Positions 3,081 to 11,161 of a stretch of 64,000 bases of DNA are shown piece by piece (the stretch's first letter is position 1; each line of letters begins with the position of its first letter). The notes under the pieces are model-generated. The model saw only the letters and a list, made by a program, of their open reading frames with translations, made no database searches and had not been told where the DNA came from. Location: contig NZ_CP102826.1 of the NCBI RefSeq assembly GCF_025643595.1, positions 930,001 to 994,000 of the forward strand, read 5' to 3'. Source of the DNA: Saccharopolyspora rosea. GTDB lineage: Bacteria > Actinomycetota > Actinomycetes > Mycobacteriales > Pseudonocardiaceae. Position numbers and translations under genes: made by a program.

Positions 3081-4973
3081 ATGGTGGAGATCGAGCGGCA
3101 CGACTACGACGTGGTGGTGATCGGCGCCGGTGGTGCCGGGCTGCGCGCCGCGATCGAGACGCGCTCCCGGGGGCTGCGCACCGCGGTGGTGTGCAAGTCG
3201 CTGTTCGGCAAGGCGCACACCGTGATGGCCGAGGGCGGCATCGCGGCCTCGATGGGCAACGTCAACTCCCGCGACAACTGGCAGGTGCACTTCCGCGACA
3301 CCATGCGCGGCGGGAAGTTCCTGAACAACTGGCGCATGGCGGAGCTGCACGCGAAGGAGGCCCCGGACCGGGTCTGGGAACTGGAGACCTACGGCGCGCT
3401 GTTCGACCGCACCGCCGACGGCCGGATCAGCCAGCGCAACTTCGGCGGCCACGAGTACCCCCGCCTGGCGCACGTCGGCGACCGGACCGGCCTGGAGCTG
3501 ATCCGCACCCTCCAGCAGAAGGTGGTTTCGCTCCAGCAGGAGGACCACGCCGCCTCCGGCGACTACGAGGCGCGGATCAAGGTGTTCCAGGAGTGCACGG
3601 TCACCGAGCTGCTGCGCGACGGCGACCGGATCGCCGGCGCGTTCGCCTACTGGCGCGAGACGGGCCGGTTCGTGCTGTTCCGGGCCCCGGCGGTCATCCT
3701 GGCCACCGGCGGGATCGGCAAGTCCTTCAAGGTCACCTCGAACTCCTGGGAGTACACCGGCGACGGGCACGCGCTGGCGCTGCGCGCCGGGGCGTCGCTG
3801 ATCAACATGGAGTTCGTCCAGTTCCACCCGACGGGCATGGTCTGGCCGCCGAGCGTGAAGGGCATCCTGGTCACCGAGTCGGTGCGCGGTGACGGCGGGG
3901 TGCTGCGCAATTCCGCCGGCGACCGGTTCATGTTCGACTACATCCCCGAGGTGTTCAAGGACAACTACGCCGACAACGAGGCCGAGGCCGACCGCTGGTA
4001 CACCGACCCGGACAACAACCGGCGCCCGCCCGAGCTGCTGCCGCGCGACGAGGTCGCCCGCGCCATCAACAACGAGGTCAAGGAGGGCCGCGGCTCCGAG
4101 CACGGCGGCGTCTTCCTGGACGTGGCGACCCGGCTGTCCACCGAGGAGATCACCCGGCGCCTCCCGTCGATGCACCACCAGTTCAAGGAACTGGCCGATG
4201 TGGACATCACCGCCGAGTCCATGGAGGTCGGACCCACCTGCCACTACGTGATGGGCGGGGTGGAGGTCGAGCCGGACACCGCGGCGTCGCGGGTGCCCGG
4301 CCTGTTCGCCGCCGGGGAGGTCGCGGGCGGGATGCACGGCTCCAACCGGCTCGGCGGGAACTCGCTGTCGGACCTGCTGGTGTTCGGCCGCCGCGCCGGG
4401 ATCGGCGCGGCCGACTACGTCGGCGGGCTCGCCGCCCGCCCGGAGATCGGCGAGTCCGATGTGGACCACGCCGCGCGCGGCGCGCAGGAACCGTTCGACG
4501 CCGACACGGGTTCGGCGGGCGAGAACCCGTACGGCCTGCACGCCGAACTGCAGCAGGTGATGAACGACCTCGTCGGCATCATCCGCCGCGGCGAGGAGAT
4601 GCGGCAGGCGCTGGAACGGCTCCACGAGCTCAAGGCCCGCTCCGCCCGCCTGGCCGTGGAGGGCAACCGGCAGTTCAACCCGGGCTGGCACCTGGCGCTG
4701 GACCTGCGGAACATGCTGCTGGTCAGCGAATGCGTCGCCCGCGCCGCGCTGCTGCGAACCGAAAGCCGCGGCGGGCACACCCGCGACGACCACCCGTCCA
4801 TGGAGTCGCAGTGGCGGCGCCGCCTGCTGGCCTGCTCCGTGATCGGCGACCGCGTCGAGGTGGTCGAGGAGGAACAGCCCCCGATGCGCGAGGACCTGCT
4901 GTCGCTGTTCAAGCTGGAGGAGCTGCGCAAGTACTACACCGAAGAGGAGCTGACCGAGGTTCCGGCGAGCTGA
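3081..4973 (+). CDS. sdhA: Succinate dehydrogenase flavoprotein subunit (Sdh1 type)
   Basis: Oxidises succinate to fumarate and passes electrons through SdhB to menaquinone; part of the TCA cycle and respiratory chain on the inner face of the membrane. The 630-residue protein has an N-terminal dinucleotide-binding motif (VVVIGAGGAGLRAAI), the covalent FAD histidine region KAHTVMAEGGIAAS, and the substrate site QFHPTGM followed later by GGNSLSDLL. Length and order match M. tuberculosis Rv0248c. The ATG at 3081 follows AAAGGA. The gene lies between the anchor and iron-sulfur genes, 21 bases before sdhB. Confidence 0.96.
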   Translation: MVEIERHDYDVVVIGAGGAGLRAAIETRSRGLRTAVVCKSLFGKAHTVMAEGGIAASMGNVNSRDNWQVHFRDTMRGGKFLNNWRMAELHAKEAPDRVWELETYGALFDRTADGRISQRNFGGHEYPRLAHVGDRTGLELIRTLQQKVVSLQQEDHAASGDYEARIKVFQECTVTELLRDGDRIAGAFAYWRETGRFVLFRAPAVILATGGIGKSFKVTSNSWEYTGDGHALALRAGASLINMEFVQFHPTGMVWPPSVKGILVTESVRGDGGVLRNSAGDRFMFDYIPEVFKDNYADNEAEADRWYTDPDNNRRPPELLPRDEVARAINNEVKEGRGSEHGGVFLDVATRLSTEEITRRLPSMHHQFKELADVDITAESMEVGPTCHYVMGGVEVEPDTAASRVPGLFAAGEVAGGMHGSNRLGGNSLSDLLVFGRRAGIGAADYVGGLAARPEIGESDVDHAARGAQEPFDADTGSAGENPYGLHAELQQVMNDLVGIIRRGEEMRQALERLHELKARSARLAVEGNRQFNPGWHLALDLRNMLLVSECVARAALLRTESRGGHTRDDHPSMESQWRRRLLACSVIGDRVEVVEEEQPPMREDLLSLFKLEELRKYYTEEELTEVPAS

Positions 4974-4994: not shown

Positions 4995-5741
4995 ATGGGA
5001 TACCAGGCGCACTTCCGGGTGTGGCGCGGCGCGGCCGACGGCGGCGAGCTCCGCGACTACACCGTCGAGGTCAACGAGGGCGAGGTCGTGCTCGACATCA
5101 TCCACCGGCTGCAGGCCACGCAGTGCCCGGACATGGCGGTGCGGTGGAACTGCAAGGCCGGCAAGTGCGGTTCGTGCTCGGCGGAGATCAACGGCCGTCC
5201 GCGGCTGATGTGCATGACGCGGATGTCCACTTTCGACCGGGACGAGACGATCACGGTCACGCCGATGCGGACCTTCCCGGTGATCAAGGACCTCGTCTGC
5301 GACGTCTCCTACAACTACGTCAAGGCACGGGAGGTCCCCGCGTTCCGGCCGCCGGAGGACCTGGAACCGGGCGACTACCGGATGCGGCAGGTCGACGTGC
5401 AGCGCTCGCAGGAGTTCCGCAAGTGCATCGAGTGCTTCCTGTGCCAGAACACCTGCCACGTGATCCGCGACCACGACGAGAACAAGCAGGCGTTCTCCGG
5501 TCCGCGTTTCCTGATGCGCGTCGCGGAACTGGAGATGCACCCGCTCGACACCGCCGAGAACCGGCCCGAGGAGTCGCGCGGCGACCACGGCCTGGGCTTG
5601 TGCAACATCACCAAGTGCTGCACGGACGTCTGCCCGGAGAACATCAGCATCACCGACAACGCGCTGATCCCGCTCAAGGAGCGCGTCGCCGACCGCCGCT
5701 ACGACCCGATCCTGCGCCTCTTCCGGCGGAAGAAGGACTGA
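4995..5741 (+). CDS. sdhB: Succinate dehydrogenase iron-sulfur subunit
   Basis: A 248-residue electron-transfer subunit linking the flavoprotein to the membrane anchor. The plant-type 2Fe-2S ligands appear as CKAGKCGSC with a later C in RLMCM. The 4Fe-4S and 3Fe-4S clusters use the Cys of CIECFLCQNTC and CNITKCCTDVCP. The ATG at 4995 has GAGGGAGGA upstream. The last 43 bases (5699-5741) overlap, on the opposite strand, the 3' end of the DUF2063-like gene, so the two operons converge without any terminator between them. Confidence 0.96.
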   Translation: MGYQAHFRVWRGAADGGELRDYTVEVNEGEVVLDIIHRLQATQCPDMAVRWNCKAGKCGSCSAEINGRPRLMCMTRMSTFDRDETITVTPMRTFPVIKDLVCDVSYNYVKAREVPAFRPPEDLEPGDYRMRQVDVQRSQEFRKCIECFLCQNTCHVIRDHDENKQAFSGPRFLMRVAELEMHPLDTAENRPEESRGDHGLGLCNITKCCTDVCPENISITDNALIPLKERVADRRYDPILRLFRRKKD

Positions 5742-6046
5742 CGTCGGCGCGCGGGCACCAACCCGCGCCCGGCGAGCCAGTCGTGGAACGCCTCCGCGTC
5801 GCCGCGGTCGGCGGCCGTGCGGCGCGGGTTGTCCCGGCAGTACTCCTCGGCCAGGGCGGCGAACTCCTCGCCCAGCCGGTCCACCAGTTCCGGGCACCGC
5901 TTCGCGAGCACGCCGCGCCGCTTGGCGACCAGCATGCGCGCCTGCAGGTCCAACCGGTCGGCGTCGAATCCGGGCGGTGCCTGCCCGCCCGCGAGCAGGG
6001 CGTCGAGCAGCGCGGCCTGCCGCGCCGCGAGGTCGTCCCGGCTCAC
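5699..6046 (-). CDS. Small partner protein of the DUF692 enzyme, DUF2063/BufC-like
   Basis: A 115-residue, helix-rich, Arg-rich protein. The pattern [13 protein letters not shown], then [17 protein letters not shown] and AFHDWL, resembles the N-terminal half of DUF2063 proteins (HvfC/BufC), the usual partners of DUF692 iron enzymes; the resemblance is by eye. The GTG start at 6046 overlaps the stop of the DUF692 gene in GTGA, indicating translational coupling. In characterised systems this kind of partner delivers the peptide substrate to the oxidase. The basic tail ([13 protein letters not shown]) is unusual and could bind acidic lipids or nucleic acid. The 3' end overlaps sdhB by 43 bases. 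Confidence 0.75.
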
Positions 6047-6840
6047 CGCCGCACCACCCGGCGGATCGCCGCCAGCTCCGCGGCGAGTTCGTCGTCCGAC
6101 GGGTAGCGGTCGTCGCGCTCCAGCAGGACGCCCGGCGGGCGGACGCGCTCGCACAGCTCCCCGAGCAGGTCCAGGACCTCGGGCAGGACCGGGTGCGCGT
6201 GGGTGTCGTGGTAGACGCCGTCGCGCCACACCCCGCCCGCGATGTGCACGTACGCCACGTGGTCGAGCGGCACCCCGGCGAGGAACGCGGTCGGATCGGT
6301 ACCGATGTTGTGCGCGTTCGCGTACAGGTTCGCGACATCGACGATCAGGCGGCAGCCGGTGCGTTCCACGAGTTCGGCGAGGAAGCGCTCCTCGGTCAGC
6401 TCCGCGTCGGGCCAGTCGACGAGCGCCGCGATGTTCTCCAGCGCCAGCGGCACCGGGAGTTCCGCCTGGGCGGCCCGGACGTTGGCGACCAGCACGTCGA
6501 GCGCCTCCCGGGTGCGCGGCACCGGCATGAGGTGCCCGGCTTCCAGCCCACCGGCGCGCACGAACGCCACGTGGTCCGACACCAGCGGCGCCGCCAACGC
6601 CTCCGCCACCCGGGCGAGGTGCCGCACCGGAGCTGGGTCGAACGGCTCGGCGCCGCCCAGCGACAGCGTCACCGCGTGCGGCAGCACCGGGGTACCGCGC
6701 TCGCGCAGCAGGCGGAGCGACTCGGGCAGCCGGTCCGGGCGGACGGCTTCGGCGACCACCTCGACGAAGTCGGCGCCGAGCCGCTCCACGGTCAGGTCGA
6801 TCTCGCTGCGCCAGCCGATGCCGACGCTCGTGGGACGCAT
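6043..6840 (-). CDS. DUF692 family multinuclear non-haem iron oxidative enzyme (MbnB/TglH/BufB-like)
   Basis: A 265-residue TIM-barrel-type enzyme of the DUF692 family (MNIO). Characterised members oxidatively modify cysteines in peptides: MbnB makes oxazolone-thioamides, TglH excises a carbon, and HvfB/BufB builds copper-binding heterocycles. Family landmarks are present: [10 protein letters not shown] (H55), VSDHVAF (H90), LENIAALV (E135), [12 protein letters not shown] (D168, N171), HIAGG (H199), DTHAHPV (D212, H214) and the C-terminal [11 protein letters not shown]. The ATG at 6840 overlaps the stop of the upstream TIGR04222 gene by one base (TGATG). The middle position in a three-gene coupled operon suggests that the Cys-containing tail of the upstream protein is its substrate; that is inference. 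Confidence 0.92.
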
Positions 6841-7643
6841 CACGGGCCACCACCCCCGCAGCCGCCGCCTCCGCAGCCGCCACCACCGTCGCCAGCGGGC
6901 CCACCGCCGCCGGCGCCGGAGCCGACGAGGGACGGGCCGAGCAGCGCAGCGATCTGCCGATCCGGGTACGCCCGAAGTCCGCGGAGCGCCACCCGGTGCG
7001 CGGCGGACTGCCCGGTGGACGGCCCCGCGGCGCGCTGGCCGGCCGTCGTGCGCCGCAGTCCCCGGGCCAGCCCGCGCAGCACGACCCACACCATCGCGGT
7101 GACGATCAGCTCCATCACGAGGAAACCCACCGGGTACCGGTGCGTGGCACCGTTGATCGCCCGCACGACACCGACGACGCCGAGCAGCGGCACCAGCCAC
7201 GCCGACGCCACCACCACCGATCTCCGCTTCGCGGTCACGAGCAGTCCCCGCGCCACCAGCTCGTCCTCGATCGGGTCGGTGAGCCCCCGGGCCCGGAAGT
7301 GGTCGCGCAGGATCGCCATCGTCGTCCCGACACCGCTGTTGGCCAGCACCTCGTGCTCGAACGCATCGCGCGGCCGCGCGGCGGCGGTCGCGTGCAGCAG
7401 GCGGGACCGGTCCACTCGCAGCGCCCCGGATTCCACCAGCCCCGCGACCACCGCGTCGACGACCCGGTTCGCACCGCCGCGCAGGTACGCGAGTTCGTGG
7501 AGGCCGAGATCACGGCCGTCGACGGGTGCGGGAGGACGCCGCGCCCACGCGCGGACGGCGGCGAAGGCAAAACAGGCGCACACCAACAAAACCGCGTAGA
7601 GCAGGAGGAATTGCGGTCCGCTCAGACCCCACGGTCGTCCCAC
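6840..7643 (-). CDS. TIGR04222-type membrane protein with Gly/Cys-rich C-terminal tail
   Basis: A 267-residue membrane protein. A first membrane helix spans residues 10-32, followed by a soluble helical domain with [19 protein letters not shown] (typical of TIGR04222), then two more helices at about 138-158 and 168-188. The tail (residues 241-267) is almost pure glycine and ends [15 protein letters not shown], with cysteines at 257 and 262. TIGR04222 proteins commonly have such near-simple Cys/Gly tails and sit beside DUF692 genes. The start is GTG at 7643 with GGGGGCGAG upstream. The last base overlaps the DUF692 start. The arrangement suggests a membrane-anchored, post-translationally modified, possibly metal-binding protein; no member is known to me to be characterised. 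Confidence 0.85.
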
Positions 7644-8111: not shown

Positions 8112-8438
8112 ATGACAGGGTTCGGTGTCGATCCGGACGCGCTTCGTGGTGCGGTCAACAAGCTGAAGGGCATCAGGCAGCAAGCTATGGACCTGCGTAG
8201 GGGTGCGAGCCGTGTCCAACCGGGCGAGTTGACGGCGGACGACCCCTACACCGCCGAGGCGCGACGCAAAATCCAAGAGCGCGCGACCGGGGAGAACGGG
8301 TCGTTGACGATGGTTGCCAAGGCTTTGGCCGACAAGCTCACCGAGAAGATCGACGCTTACGAGGCGACTCTCAGGGAGTACGGGGCGGCTGACGATCACG
8401 CCACTGTGGGCCACCGCAACGTCGACCGTCAGGCATGA
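8112..8438 (+). CDS. Small ESX (type VII) secretion-associated protein, PE-like
   Basis: A 108-residue, mostly helical protein without signal peptide. It begins MTGFGVDPDALRGAVNKL and ends in a flexible tail. The C-terminal region holds YGAAD, which fits the YxxxD/E type VII export signal placed after a helix-turn-helix. The ATG at 8112 has GAGGGGGAG upstream. It is the first gene of a four-gene set ending in an EspG chaperone, the context in which PE/EsxB-like partners occur. The sequence is not a clear PE or WXG100 match, so the exact family is unsure. GC content is visibly lower than that of flanking housekeeping genes. Confidence 0.7.
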   Translation: MTGFGVDPDALRGAVNKLKGIRQQAMDLRRGASRVQPGELTADDPYTAEARRKIQERATGENGSLTMVAKALADKLTEKIDAYEATLREYGAADDHATVGHRNVDRQA

Positions 8439-9040
8439 TTCAGACCGTGGCTATGAAGAAAATCATGTTCAAGTACAGTGCAACTTTCGGTGCGGCGCTC
8501 GCGTTGGTGGGTGGCTTGGCTGCCTGTGGCACCAACGGTGGCGGCGCTGGAGAAGCCCAGCCGCCACAACCGCAACCCAGTGCCGCGCCGAAAATCCCCG
8601 ACCCCAAAGACGCCTCCGCGGTGCCTCGATGTGGTCTGCTTTCTCCTGAAGCTGCTTCGTCGCTCGGGCTAGCGGTACCAGGCGAAGAACGTCCTGATCC
8701 AGTGGATCCGAAAGCGCCCTCCCCGTGCAATTGGAAGACCAAGGACGACGGCGGGGAAGTGGCGCTCACTCCGATCGACAACCGGTCGCTCCAGGAGTAC
8801 CACGACAACAGGTCTAAGTACGCCGACTTCAAGGATTTGAGCGTGGCTGGCCACCCTGCGGTGGAAGCCAACCAGGGGGATCCGGTGCAGGTGGGTTCCT
8901 GCGACATCTTCCTCGCGACGAAGGACGGCCAGGTGTTGTCGTCTCAGGTGGACCTTTACAACAACCAAGGGAAGAATCCCTGCGAGTTGGCACAAAAGGC
9001 GCTTGAAGCAGCAGTTCCTGCTTTGCCTGCGGCCAAATGA
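8435..9040 (+). CDS. DUF3558 family lipoprotein
   Basis: A 201-residue secreted lipoprotein. The leader contains a hydrophobic stretch ending in the lipobox LAAC, followed by a Gly/Pro/Gln-rich linker. The mature part has the DUF3558 features VPRCGLLSPEAASSLG, PSPCNW and VGSCDIFLAT, whose cysteines probably pair. The ATG at 8435 overlaps the preceding stop in ATGA; an in-frame ATG at 8453 (MKKIMFKYSATF) would give a more typical short leader and could be the true start. DUF3558 lipoproteins often occur in ESX-type substrate modules of Pseudonocardiaceae, as here. Its role is unknown. Confidence 0.85.
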   Translation: MIQTVAMKKIMFKYSATFGAALALVGGLAACGTNGGGAGEAQPPQPQPSAAPKIPDPKDASAVPRCGLLSPEAASSLGLAVPGEERPDPVDPKAPSPCNWKTKDDGGEVALTPIDNRSLQEYHDNRSKYADFKDLSVAGHPAVEANQGDPVQVGSCDIFLATKDGQVLSSQVDLYNNQGKNPCELAQKALEAAVPALPAAK

Positions 9041-9059
9041 GTAGCTTGGGGGCTGTCGT

Positions 9060-10337
9060 ATGACGATGATGTGTTACGTGGGCAGAGCCAAGGACTACCG
9101 GAACCAAATGGCCGGTTCGCCCGAAGCCACCCATCTGAAGAAGCCGACGGACACCGGTGTCGACAAGTGGAACGGTGTTTCGAACTCCTTCAGCCGAATG
9201 GTCGACGACATCAAGGATGCGATCAACGCTGCCGAAGGGGCGCACAGCGGGCGTGCCGCGGAAGCGGCAAGGGCATCAATCGATGAGATCACGCCGCACG
9301 CGCGTGCTGCGTCGGAGACCGCCAAGGGCGTGGGGAAAGCCCTGACGGACCAGATCAACAACCAGAACCAGGCATTCGAAGCTCTTCCCCGGCAAGGCGA
9401 GAAGCTTCCGGACGGGAAGGACGTGCAGCTGGATCCGCCGCAGAAGGGGTGGGTCGAGGACTGGGGGCTGGACAAGTTCGGGCCGACCAGTTGGATGAGC
9501 GACTACGAGGACAAGCAGCAGGCTTTCCAGGCGACGAACGACCACGCCGAAGCCGTGATGCAGCGGTACCAGGCGCAGACGAACTCCGTCATCGGGCAGG
9601 TGCCGGAGTTCAAGCCGGTTGACCAGCCCGCGCCGCCGCAGCAGCCGCCGCCGGGGTCGGGGATGCCGGATGCTTCCAGCCACATGGCCGGGAGCCACAT
9701 GAGCACTCCGTCCGTGTCCGGCTCGCCGGCCGGGACCTCGTCCGCGTGGGCGTCCGGAGCCGGTGGCGGGGGTGGGGCCGGGGCCGTGCACCTGCCTTCC
9801 GGTGGTTCTTCGGGTGTGCCCGCGGGGACGCAGTCGGCTTGGGCTTCGACGCCCTCGGCGCCTCCCGGCGTCGTGCAGGGTCCGGACGGGACGATGTACC
9901 GGCAGAACCCGCAGACCGGGGAGTGGGAGCGGCAGAACCCCTACAACGGGCGCTGGGCGCCGTCGCCGAACGGCGGGCCGGGCGGTTCCGGTCGTGCCGG
10001 GGGTGCGGGCGGCGCCGGCGGTGCTCGCGGCGCCGGCGGGTTCGGGCGCGGTGGTGCCGGAGCGCGCGGCGGCGGGCAGATCGGTGCCGGGGGTCGTGCC
10101 GGGGCCGGTGGTGTCGGCCAGGGCTCGGCAGGTTCGGGCAGCGGGTCGTCGGCGTCCGGCGGGCGCGGCAGCGGGCCGATGGGCGGTGCCGGTGCCGGCC
10201 GCGGTGGCCAGAAGGGCGAGGACGACCAGGAGCACAGCCGTCCCAGTTGGCTCACCGAGGAGGAGGACGTGTTCACCAACGACATGCAGCGCGTCGCTCC
10301 GCCGGTCTTCGGTGACTGGTCCAACGGGGGGCGCTGA
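9060..10337 (+). CDS. PPE-like/WXG-type ESX substrate with long Pro/Gly-rich tail
   Basis: A 425-residue protein with a helical N-terminal domain (about residues 1-180) carrying a WNG turn (KWNGVSNSF) between two helices, as in WXG100 and PPE proteins. The rest is low complexity: a Pro-rich hinge, two copies of an AGT-S/Q-SAWAS repeat, the block MYRQNPQTGEWERQNPYNGRW, then a long Gly/Ala/Arg-rich stretch, ending in an acidic segment (EEDVFTNDMQRVAPPVFGDW). It has no signal peptide. It lies directly before the espG-like gene, which suggests that the chaperone binds this product for export. An EspB-like secreted structural role is possible; function is not known. Confidence 0.75.
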   Translation: MTMMCYVGRAKDYRNQMAGSPEATHLKKPTDTGVDKWNGVSNSFSRMVDDIKDAINAAEGAHSGRAAEAARASIDEITPHARAASETAKGVGKALTDQINNQNQAFEALPRQGEKLPDGKDVQLDPPQKGWVEDWGLDKFGPTSWMSDYEDKQQAFQATNDHAEAVMQRYQAQTNSVIGQVPEFKPVDQPAPPQQPPPGSGMPDASSHMAGSHMSTPSVSGSPAGTSSAWASGAGGGGGAGAVHLPSGGSSGVPAGTQSAWASTPSAPPGVVQGPDGTMYRQNPQTGEWERQNPYNGRWAPSPNGGPGGSGRAGGAGGAGGARGAGGFGRGGAGARGGGQIGAGGRAGAGGVGQGSAGSGSGSSASGGRGSGPMGGAGAGRGGQKGEDDQEHSRPSWLTEEEDVFTNDMQRVAPPVFGDWSNGGR

Positions 10338-10339
10338 GC

Positions 10340-11161
10340 GTGTCCCGTCGTGAGATCAGCCTGCCGCCCGAGGCGGCGAGCTACCTGTGCAAGCGCTTCG
10401 ACCTGCAGCTGCACCCGCTGCTGCGGGTCGGGTGGTTGCCGGTCGACGCGACGGAGGAGGACCACCGCCGGGCCACTGACCTCGCGCGGGAACAGCTGAC
10501 CCGGCAGGGCCTGTTGGAGCTCGACGATCTGCACCCGTTCCTGGAGGACGCCGTGCAGCTGATCGCCCGCCCGCCGTTGGCGGTCGGCGTCGCCGTGCTG
10601 AAGCGGGACGGCGAGAGCTTCAACGCCGTGCTCGTCGAGCAGGGCCGCAGCACCATCCAGGCGTACCAGCCGGACGGCGAGTCCGCCGAGGAGCTGCGGG
10701 AGATCCGCCTCTGCCGCCACGAGTACGGCGGGCCGGTGGGCAACGCGGTCAACCTGCTCGGGCGGCTCCCGGCCGCGCACGGCGCTTCGGTGTCCGTGCA
10801 GGCCGACCAGCTCGACGCGGTGAGCAAGCGGATGGCCGCGGGCGAGAGCAGCGTGCTGTCCGCTCTCGCCGGCTGCGGCATCCGCGGGTCGGACGCGCAG
10901 GTGCTCGCGAAGGCGTTCAGCGCCAAGCGGGTGATGGACGGCGTGCTGACCGTGCGGGCGTACGACCAGAAGGTGCGGCGCATGCACACGCTGCCGTACA
11001 ACCTCCAGTTCTTCGTCACCGAGGAAGGCTGCTTCATGATGCAGCGGCGGTCGGACCGCGAGGGGCGCGAGTGGTTCACGCTCGCACCCGCCGACAGCCG
11101 CAAGCTGATCGCCAAGGTCGACGAGATGGTGAAGGCGTTGACCGCACCCGCCCGGGTCTGA
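10340..11161 (+). CDS. espG: ESX secretion-associated protein EspG family
   Basis: A 273-residue cytosolic protein of the EspG family, the dedicated chaperones that bind PE-PPE type substrates and keep them soluble for type VII secretion. It shows the family pattern of an N-terminal segment (LPPEAASYLCKRFDLQLHP), a central sheet with FNAVLVEQGRSTIQAYQ, and a C-terminal region ending in ADSRKLIAKVDEMVKAL. The GTG start at 10340 is 2 bases after the preceding stop. A perfect intrinsic terminator follows 17 bases after the stop, closing the four-gene module. No ESX core component (EccC, EccB, MycP) is in the window. Confidence 0.85.
   Translation: MSRREISLPPEAASYLCKRFDLQLHPLLRVGWLPVDATEEDHRRATDLAREQLTRQGLLELDDLHPFLEDAVQLIARPPLAVGVAVLKRDGESFNAVLVEQGRSTIQAYQPDGESAEELREIRLCRHEYGGPVGNAVNLLGRLPAAHGASVSVQADQLDAVSKRMAAGESSVLSALAGCGIRGSDAQVLAKAFSAKRVMDGVLTVRAYDQKVRRMHTLPYNLQFFVTEEGCFMMQRRSDREGREWFTLAPADSRKLIAKVDEMVKALTAPARV

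Follow-up and report, generated by a model that had tools for sequence, protein, structure and literature searches.

Known targets of MNIO (DUF692) enzymes are small, mostly secreted peptides, and the locus described here raises the question of whether an enzyme of this family acts instead on the tail of a membrane protein. The locus lies in a 64,000-nucleotide stretch of the Saccharopolyspora rosea genome (contig NZ_CP102826.1, positions 930,001 to 994,000; the whole stretch is called the window), and an earlier note on this DNA had taken the C-terminal Gly/Cys tail of a TIGR04222 protein to be the candidate substrate of the MNIO encoded next to it.

The central idea of that note is not new, since the proposal had already been published: in the passages dealing with TIGR04222, Antoine et al. 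2025 (PMC12452194) gathered over 3,500 such proteins with Ser/Gly-rich tails containing Cys and frequent MNIO neighbours, proposed some of them as MNIO substrates, and called the modification uninvestigated. According to the same passages, over a quarter of the TIGR04222 proteins have no C-proximal Cys, and MNIO is absent in 490 of 1372 genomes with TIGR04222. In the literature that we searched, no biochemical evidence for a modification of the tail was found. Relative to these passages of PMC12452194, what our sequence comparisons add is a prediction of the reverse membrane topology and a likely origin of the tail, suggested by kinship with DUF2207 proteins.

Three overlapping genes and their products

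The operon comprises three genes on the minus strand, which encode the TIGR04222 membrane protein (7643-6840), the MNIO/DUF692 enzyme (6840-6043) and a partner protein (6046-5699). The first two genes overlap by 1 base in the sequence TGATG at 6838-6842 and the last two by 4 bases in the sequence GTGA at 6043-6046, as the earlier note had described. Profile searches placed all three products above the cut-offs of the families named there (113.4 against 43 bits for NCBIfam TIGR04222, 267 against 25 bits for PF05114, and 30.2 against the gathering cut-off of 27.2 bits for PF09836, the DUF2063 signature of the small partner), and each of these profiles has one match in the whole 6.56-Mb genome. 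No cleavage protease was identified beside the three genes. The three genes are a real, conserved module belonging to an already published putative class; in the passages on TIGR04222-MNIO clusters in PMC12452194, the clusters have the same three parts, and the partner of the Saccharothrix example is likewise 115 amino acids long.

The TIGR04222 protein (267 amino acids, GTG start, 6840..7643; AlphaFold2 mean pLDDT 90.1) has three transmembrane helices predicted from hydropathy, namely residues 12-30 (7554..7610), 142-160 (7164..7220) and 171-189 (7077..7133), and these are consistent with helices 9-34, 150-167 and 173-194 of the model. A domain (residues 43-141, 7221..7517) lies between helices 1 and 2, and a short fourth segment (residues 214-221, 6981..7004) follows helix 3; the latter was modelled as an 8-residue helix with a mean hydropathy of about 0 and charged residues, and it is not predicted to cross the membrane in this protein. 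The Gly/Cys tail (residues 241-267, 6843..6923) is predicted to be disordered, with a pLDDT of about 50. The protein has Cys at positions 22, 24, 257 and 262, and the last two stand in the tail ([15 protein letters not shown]) as a C-x4-C pair (6858..6875, Cys262 to Cys257), which we regard as the predicted modification sites.

The MNIO (265 amino acids, 6043..6840), whose start overlaps the stop of the membrane protein gene, covers positions 2-262 of the 263 in the PF05114 profile. H55, H90, E135, D168, N171, H199, D212, H214 and E241 are invariant in an alignment with 17 homologues, and the same positions, N171 aside, are mostly shared with solved DUF692 proteins. Helped by the alignment to the solved proteins, we take the invariant His, Glu and Asp positions to be the metal-site ligands; the metal-site motifs claimed in the earlier note would be these invariant positions. 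The named relatives listed as nearest belong to actinomycetes of the Pseudonocardiaceae type, Umezawaea, Saccharothrix and Saccharopolyspora among them.

The partner (115 amino acids, 5699..6046) was modelled as one domain of five helices with the last 15 residues unstructured, which leaves no room for the second, RRE-type domain that is a trait of PME-type 1. Its length, its position and its predicted fold are those of PME-type 2, a short DUF2063-like protein behind the MNIO gene. PF09836 matches only 9 of 60 relatives of the partner at an E value of 0.01. While the window partner passes the DUF2063 cut-off, no DUF2063 genes are reported for TIGR04222 clusters in the passages of PMC12452194 concerned.

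Two features of the surroundings may be recorded here. The partner gene and the convergent sdhB share 43 bases at their ends (window 5699-5741). Further along, genes for a small protein, a DUF3558 lipoprotein, a Gly-rich protein and an EspG-family protein stand in a row at 8112-11161 and resemble an ESX-type cassette.

Gene order and Cys tails among relatives

The C-x4-C DNA motif by itself is not above chance: it occurs 3 times in the genome, and the reversed control pattern 6 times. A neighbourhood survey, as the earlier note had suggested, was carried out on a sample of 249 genomes of the order. A TIGR04222 copy was called adjacent when it lay within 6 kb of an MNIO gene, a tail was called a Cys tail when 2 or more Cys stood among the final 60 residues, and partners were detected with a profile grown from the window partner. 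Two TIGR04222 entries, one at a contig end (G112) and one a fragment of 3 residues (G146), neither of them adjacent to MNIO, were dropped. TIGR04222 was matched in at least 107 genomes and MNIO in 86.

Among the 150 TIGR04222 matches listed, 107 were adjacent to MNIO, and all 107 stood upstream of it on the same strand, forming 80 clusters. Among these listed matches, 98 of the 107 adjacent copies had a Cys tail, at least one Cys-tailed copy was present in 79 of the 80 clusters, and the partner stood behind MNIO in 72 clusters, 64 of them with a 4-base overlap. The proportion of clusters with a partner may be compared with the short PME-type 2 partners noted, in the passages on such clusters in PMC12452194, for at least 10% of TIGR04222 clusters. 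The tails themselves are conserved: among the listed matches, the residue after a tail Cys is Gly in 361 and Ser in 82 of 451 cases, the commonest Cys spacings are 6, 5 and 7, and 75 of the 107 adjacent copies end in CGG. The window tail, with 2 Cys, is below the median of 4. Where the listed TIGR04222 copies do not adjoin MNIO, Cys tails were found in 9 of 28 copies from genomes with MNIO elsewhere and in 2 of 13 from genomes without any. In a phylum sample, MNIO was present in 13 of the 14 genomes with TIGR04222 above the cut-off, against 18 of 346 overall. The conservation of gene order and Cys tails in relatives is beyond chance, and it supports the view of the Cys tail as a candidate MNIO substrate; for this clade, the earlier note was also right to point to the tail of a membrane protein in place of a small secreted precursor.

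A second set, 80 named loci fetched by MNIO similarity, contained the partner in 79 and a Cys-tailed TIGR04222 in 69; no Cys-tailed TIGR04222 was found in the other 11. In the named Streptomyces loci, the Cys-tailed TIGR04222 gene tends to stand behind the partner gene. As a separate observation, up to four TIGR04222 copies stand in tandem before one MNIO gene in L063, L066, L070, L072, L209, L220 and L222, and some of these copies have no Cys; they may form mixed complexes with the others.

The single cluster without a Cys-tailed copy (G247, locus L141) has a tail with 1 Cys, its MNIO gene is broken up across three frames, and its genus mate G188 has four tail Cys; this one case is possibly decay following enzyme loss, or an assembly error. 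Among the matches listed, 15 MNIO loci of the order had no TIGR04222 within 6 kb, of which 3 had a small anchored tail, 3 were at contig ends and 9 showed no Cys tail on the MNIO strand by the criteria used. In two of these nine, L181 (G189) and L182 (G248), neither TIGR04222 nor a Cys tail was found nearby, and their PF05114 scores rank first and ninth in the sample. The association of Cys tail and MNIO gave P = 1e-8 by Fisher's test, which ignores relatedness. Only 3 changes of MNIO state were counted on the tree built from 148 TIGR04222 bodies, and a tree-aware test, which had just 2 supported independent pairs with differing MNIO states, was not significant (median P = 0.5); both pairs agree with the idea that Cys tail and MNIO go together. 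The association is largely inherited by the clade. The genes, their overlaps, their joint conservation and the Cys tail that accompanies this MNIO clade are observed directly in the sequences.

Six Cys tails, composed of Gly, Ser, His and Cys, occur beside MNIO genes on a different anchor with a single helix (G073, G238 with two, G191, G648 and Tsukamurella; loci L186, L187, L188, L300 and L329; for example, 4087-4579 on the MNIO strand of L186 and 3907-4176 of L329). The TIGR04222 profile found no match in the small anchors of G073, G238, G191 and G648, and those of G191, G238 and Tsukamurella possibly represent a single lineage. The Tsukamurella anchor is annotated as hypothetical; its gene has the DUF692 gene on one side and, on the other, a second hypothetical gene whose product by eye resembles the partner. 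That such a tail is found again on an unrelated anchor speaks for the tail being the substrate, and its presence on two unrelated anchors offers a simple handle for finding further such substrates. Also in Tsukamurella (L330:1034-2965), an annotated TIGR04222 protein of 643 amino acids seems to join two copies within one frame; the first has an Arg-rich end, as after a frameshift.

Cys-rich Gly/Ser tails are able to bind metals unmodified, and the tail Cys might accordingly hold zinc or copper as free thiols while the MNIO and its partner act elsewhere. Two MNIO-free genomes (G182 and G225) that retain Gly-rich tails with 2 Cys fit this alternative. Against it stand the joint occurrence of Cys tail and MNIO in nearly all of the listed clusters and the same tail on an unrelated anchor beside MNIO genes. 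It would also need another target for the pair, and in a partial search of this genome for another precursor, an outcome that the earlier note had named as contrary to its idea, neither a DUF2282 bufferin precursor nor the EGKCG codon motif was found, and a precursor of the bufferin type was accordingly rejected. We consider the free-thiol alternative improbable.

Kinship with DUF2207 proteins and membrane topology

A profile-profile comparison aligned TIGR04222 with DUF2207_C over 169 columns, spanning the domain and helices 2-3 (probability 98.1%, E = 8.8e-14). The 20 weak TIGR04222 matches retrieved from the phylum sample are mostly DUF2207 proteins; of 10 that were scanned, all had DUF2207_C and 9 the N-terminal DUF2207 domain. 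The DUF2207 proteins resemble the window protein in the homologous C-terminal domain and in the Gly-rich tail, which most of the 20 weak matches have, and differ from it in their N-terminal DUF2207 domain, which the window protein does not have, and in the composition of the tail, since none of the 20 has 2 or more Cys among its final 60 residues. PF20990 had no match in the genome at an E value of 0.001; at 0.01, it matched 5 of 68 relatives and not the window protein. On the simplest reading of these comparisons, a Gly-rich tail existed early on and probably acquired its Cys together with MNIO, the direction of this change being the part that is deduced.

The same comparison bears on a neutral origin of the Cys tail. 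The Gly codon GGC and the Cys codon TGC are one base apart, and the tail could be the product of drift in a slippage-prone GGC/TGC repeat, with the MNIO acting on an unrecognised peptide; the frequency of the C-x4-C DNA motif, no rarer than that of its reversed control, is in line with this. The Gly-rich tails of the DUF2207 proteins, however, do not show such Cys, which led us to reject chance Cys in Gly codons, and the spacing of the Cys and the Gly or Ser that follows them are conserved in the relatives. Drift is therefore highly improbable.

The side of the membrane on which the tail lies was examined by the distribution of charges. The flanks are net positive after helix 1 in 88 of 95 proteins, before helix 2 in 80 and after helix 3 in 87, and in 77 of 78 Cys-tailed proteins with three clear helices, Lys and Arg near the ends of helices 1-3 were more frequent on the predicted inside (density 0.236 against 0.062). 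In many DUF2207 proteins, the N-terminal DUF2207 domain is preceded by a signal-like start, and by implication helix 1 leads on into the cytosol. Across the family, the fourth segment has a weak hydrophobicity, with a mean of 1.28 where the helices have 2.1-2.3. From the positive charges, the homology to DUF2207_C and the charged fourth segment of the window protein, the large domain and the tail are predicted to lie on the cytoplasmic side. The earlier note had placed the tail at the cell surface, and this part of its proposal is not supported by the charges and the homology.

The passages of Antoine et al. 2025 on TIGR04222 (PMC12452194) likewise predict that the tail and the large domain are extracytoplasmic, and they do so without mention of DUF2207. 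An MNIO-modified tail on the outer side, forming a copper site at the surface or in the periplasm, could arise where the fourth segment crosses the membrane, and in 25 of 91 Cys-tailed relatives, this segment is uncharged with a hydropathy of at least 1.6; in view of these relatives, the cytoplasmic placement stays a prediction. Such an arrangement is nevertheless unlikely in view of the positive flanks and the Lys and Arg bias described above, the charged and short fourth segment of the window protein, and the finding that 15 of 18 related DUF2207 proteins lack a hydrophobic fourth segment. The six small anchors also argue against it, having no Lys or Arg before the helix and 5-8 within the 20 residues after it, as does the MNIO, in which inspection of the sequence revealed no export signal. 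The matter is of consequence, since topology decides whether the putative metal site would buffer metal inside or outside the cell.

Candidate chemistry and known systems

The precursors with EGKCG repeats (oxazolin/HvfA and fontiphorin) offer an analogy for the chemistry. They share with the window system Cys-Gly at a five-residue spacing and an MNIO with a DUF2063-type partner, and in the portion of PMC13097082 that treats these substrates, every Lys-Cys loses 4 Da, forming a 5-thiooxazole. They differ in that they are small and secreted, carry Lys ahead of Cys and have a DUF2063-RRE partner; the window system has a membrane protein tail, Gly ahead of Cys and a short partner. Among the NCBIfam equivalogs, the window MNIO is closest in score to BufB (185.8 bits), and the bufferins (Buf1/Buf2) are alike in having Cys as the target and a partner of the DUF2063 kind; the score is nevertheless below the BufB cut-off of 310 bits, and the window system has no DUF2282 precursor and no signal peptide. 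The cut-offs for HvfB (153.3 against 360 bits), ApyH (105.2 against 400) and ChrH (56.4 against 600) were not reached, either. The methanobactin system MbnABC is more distant: the MNIO is far under the MbnB cut-off (46.1 against 325 bits), and MbnC (7dz9_C), the best solved match of the partner model, is a weak match for a helical protein (Foldseek E = 2.9, probability 0.30). Because the MNIO falls below the cut-off of every characterised MNIO equivalog, its chemistry cannot be read across from them.

We propose that, in the cytosol, the MNIO and its DUF2063-type partner would jointly take the C-terminal tail of the TIGR04222 protein, predicted to be disordered, as their substrate and oxidise Cys257 and Cys262; each of these precedes Gly, and their five-residue spacing matches that of the EGKCG repeats. 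By analogy with the EGKCG substrates (PMC13097082, the same portion), the likeliest product would be a 5-thiooxazole at each Cys, with a loss of about 4 Da each; the window Cys are preceded by Gly and not by Lys, so that another chemistry is possible. The TIGR04222 protein would stay in the membrane, and the product would be a fixed, cytosol-facing site for a soft metal, perhaps copper, with no released peptide. Copper is our best guess because of bufferins and methanobactins, and nothing in the cluster itself shows it. On the evidence of conserved gene order, tails and topology signals, we judge this oxidation of the two Cys, perhaps to 5-thiooxazoles, and the resulting metal site to be the probable function of the module, with the chemistry, the metal and the role all deduced.

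A broader account may be offered more tentatively, as one that we hold possible rather than probable. Rather than producing a secreted peptide that binds metal, the MNIO would permanently equip the cytoplasmic face of the membrane; the Gly tail shared with DUF2207 proteins would have gained Cys together with MNIO, becoming a fixed thiooxazole metal site, and in other lineages such a tail would have been put on the unrelated one-helix anchor. The lack of an RRE in the short partner might be explained by a cytosolic docking domain that the substrate itself supplies. If true, the action of MNIO on the tails of resident membrane proteins would be a peptide-type chemistry that gives the membrane a built-in metal site.

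Genes for MsrB (SelR) and a chlorite-dismutase-like protein were also recurrent in the flanks of the named MNIO loci (44 and 42 of 80, respectively; L196-L242).
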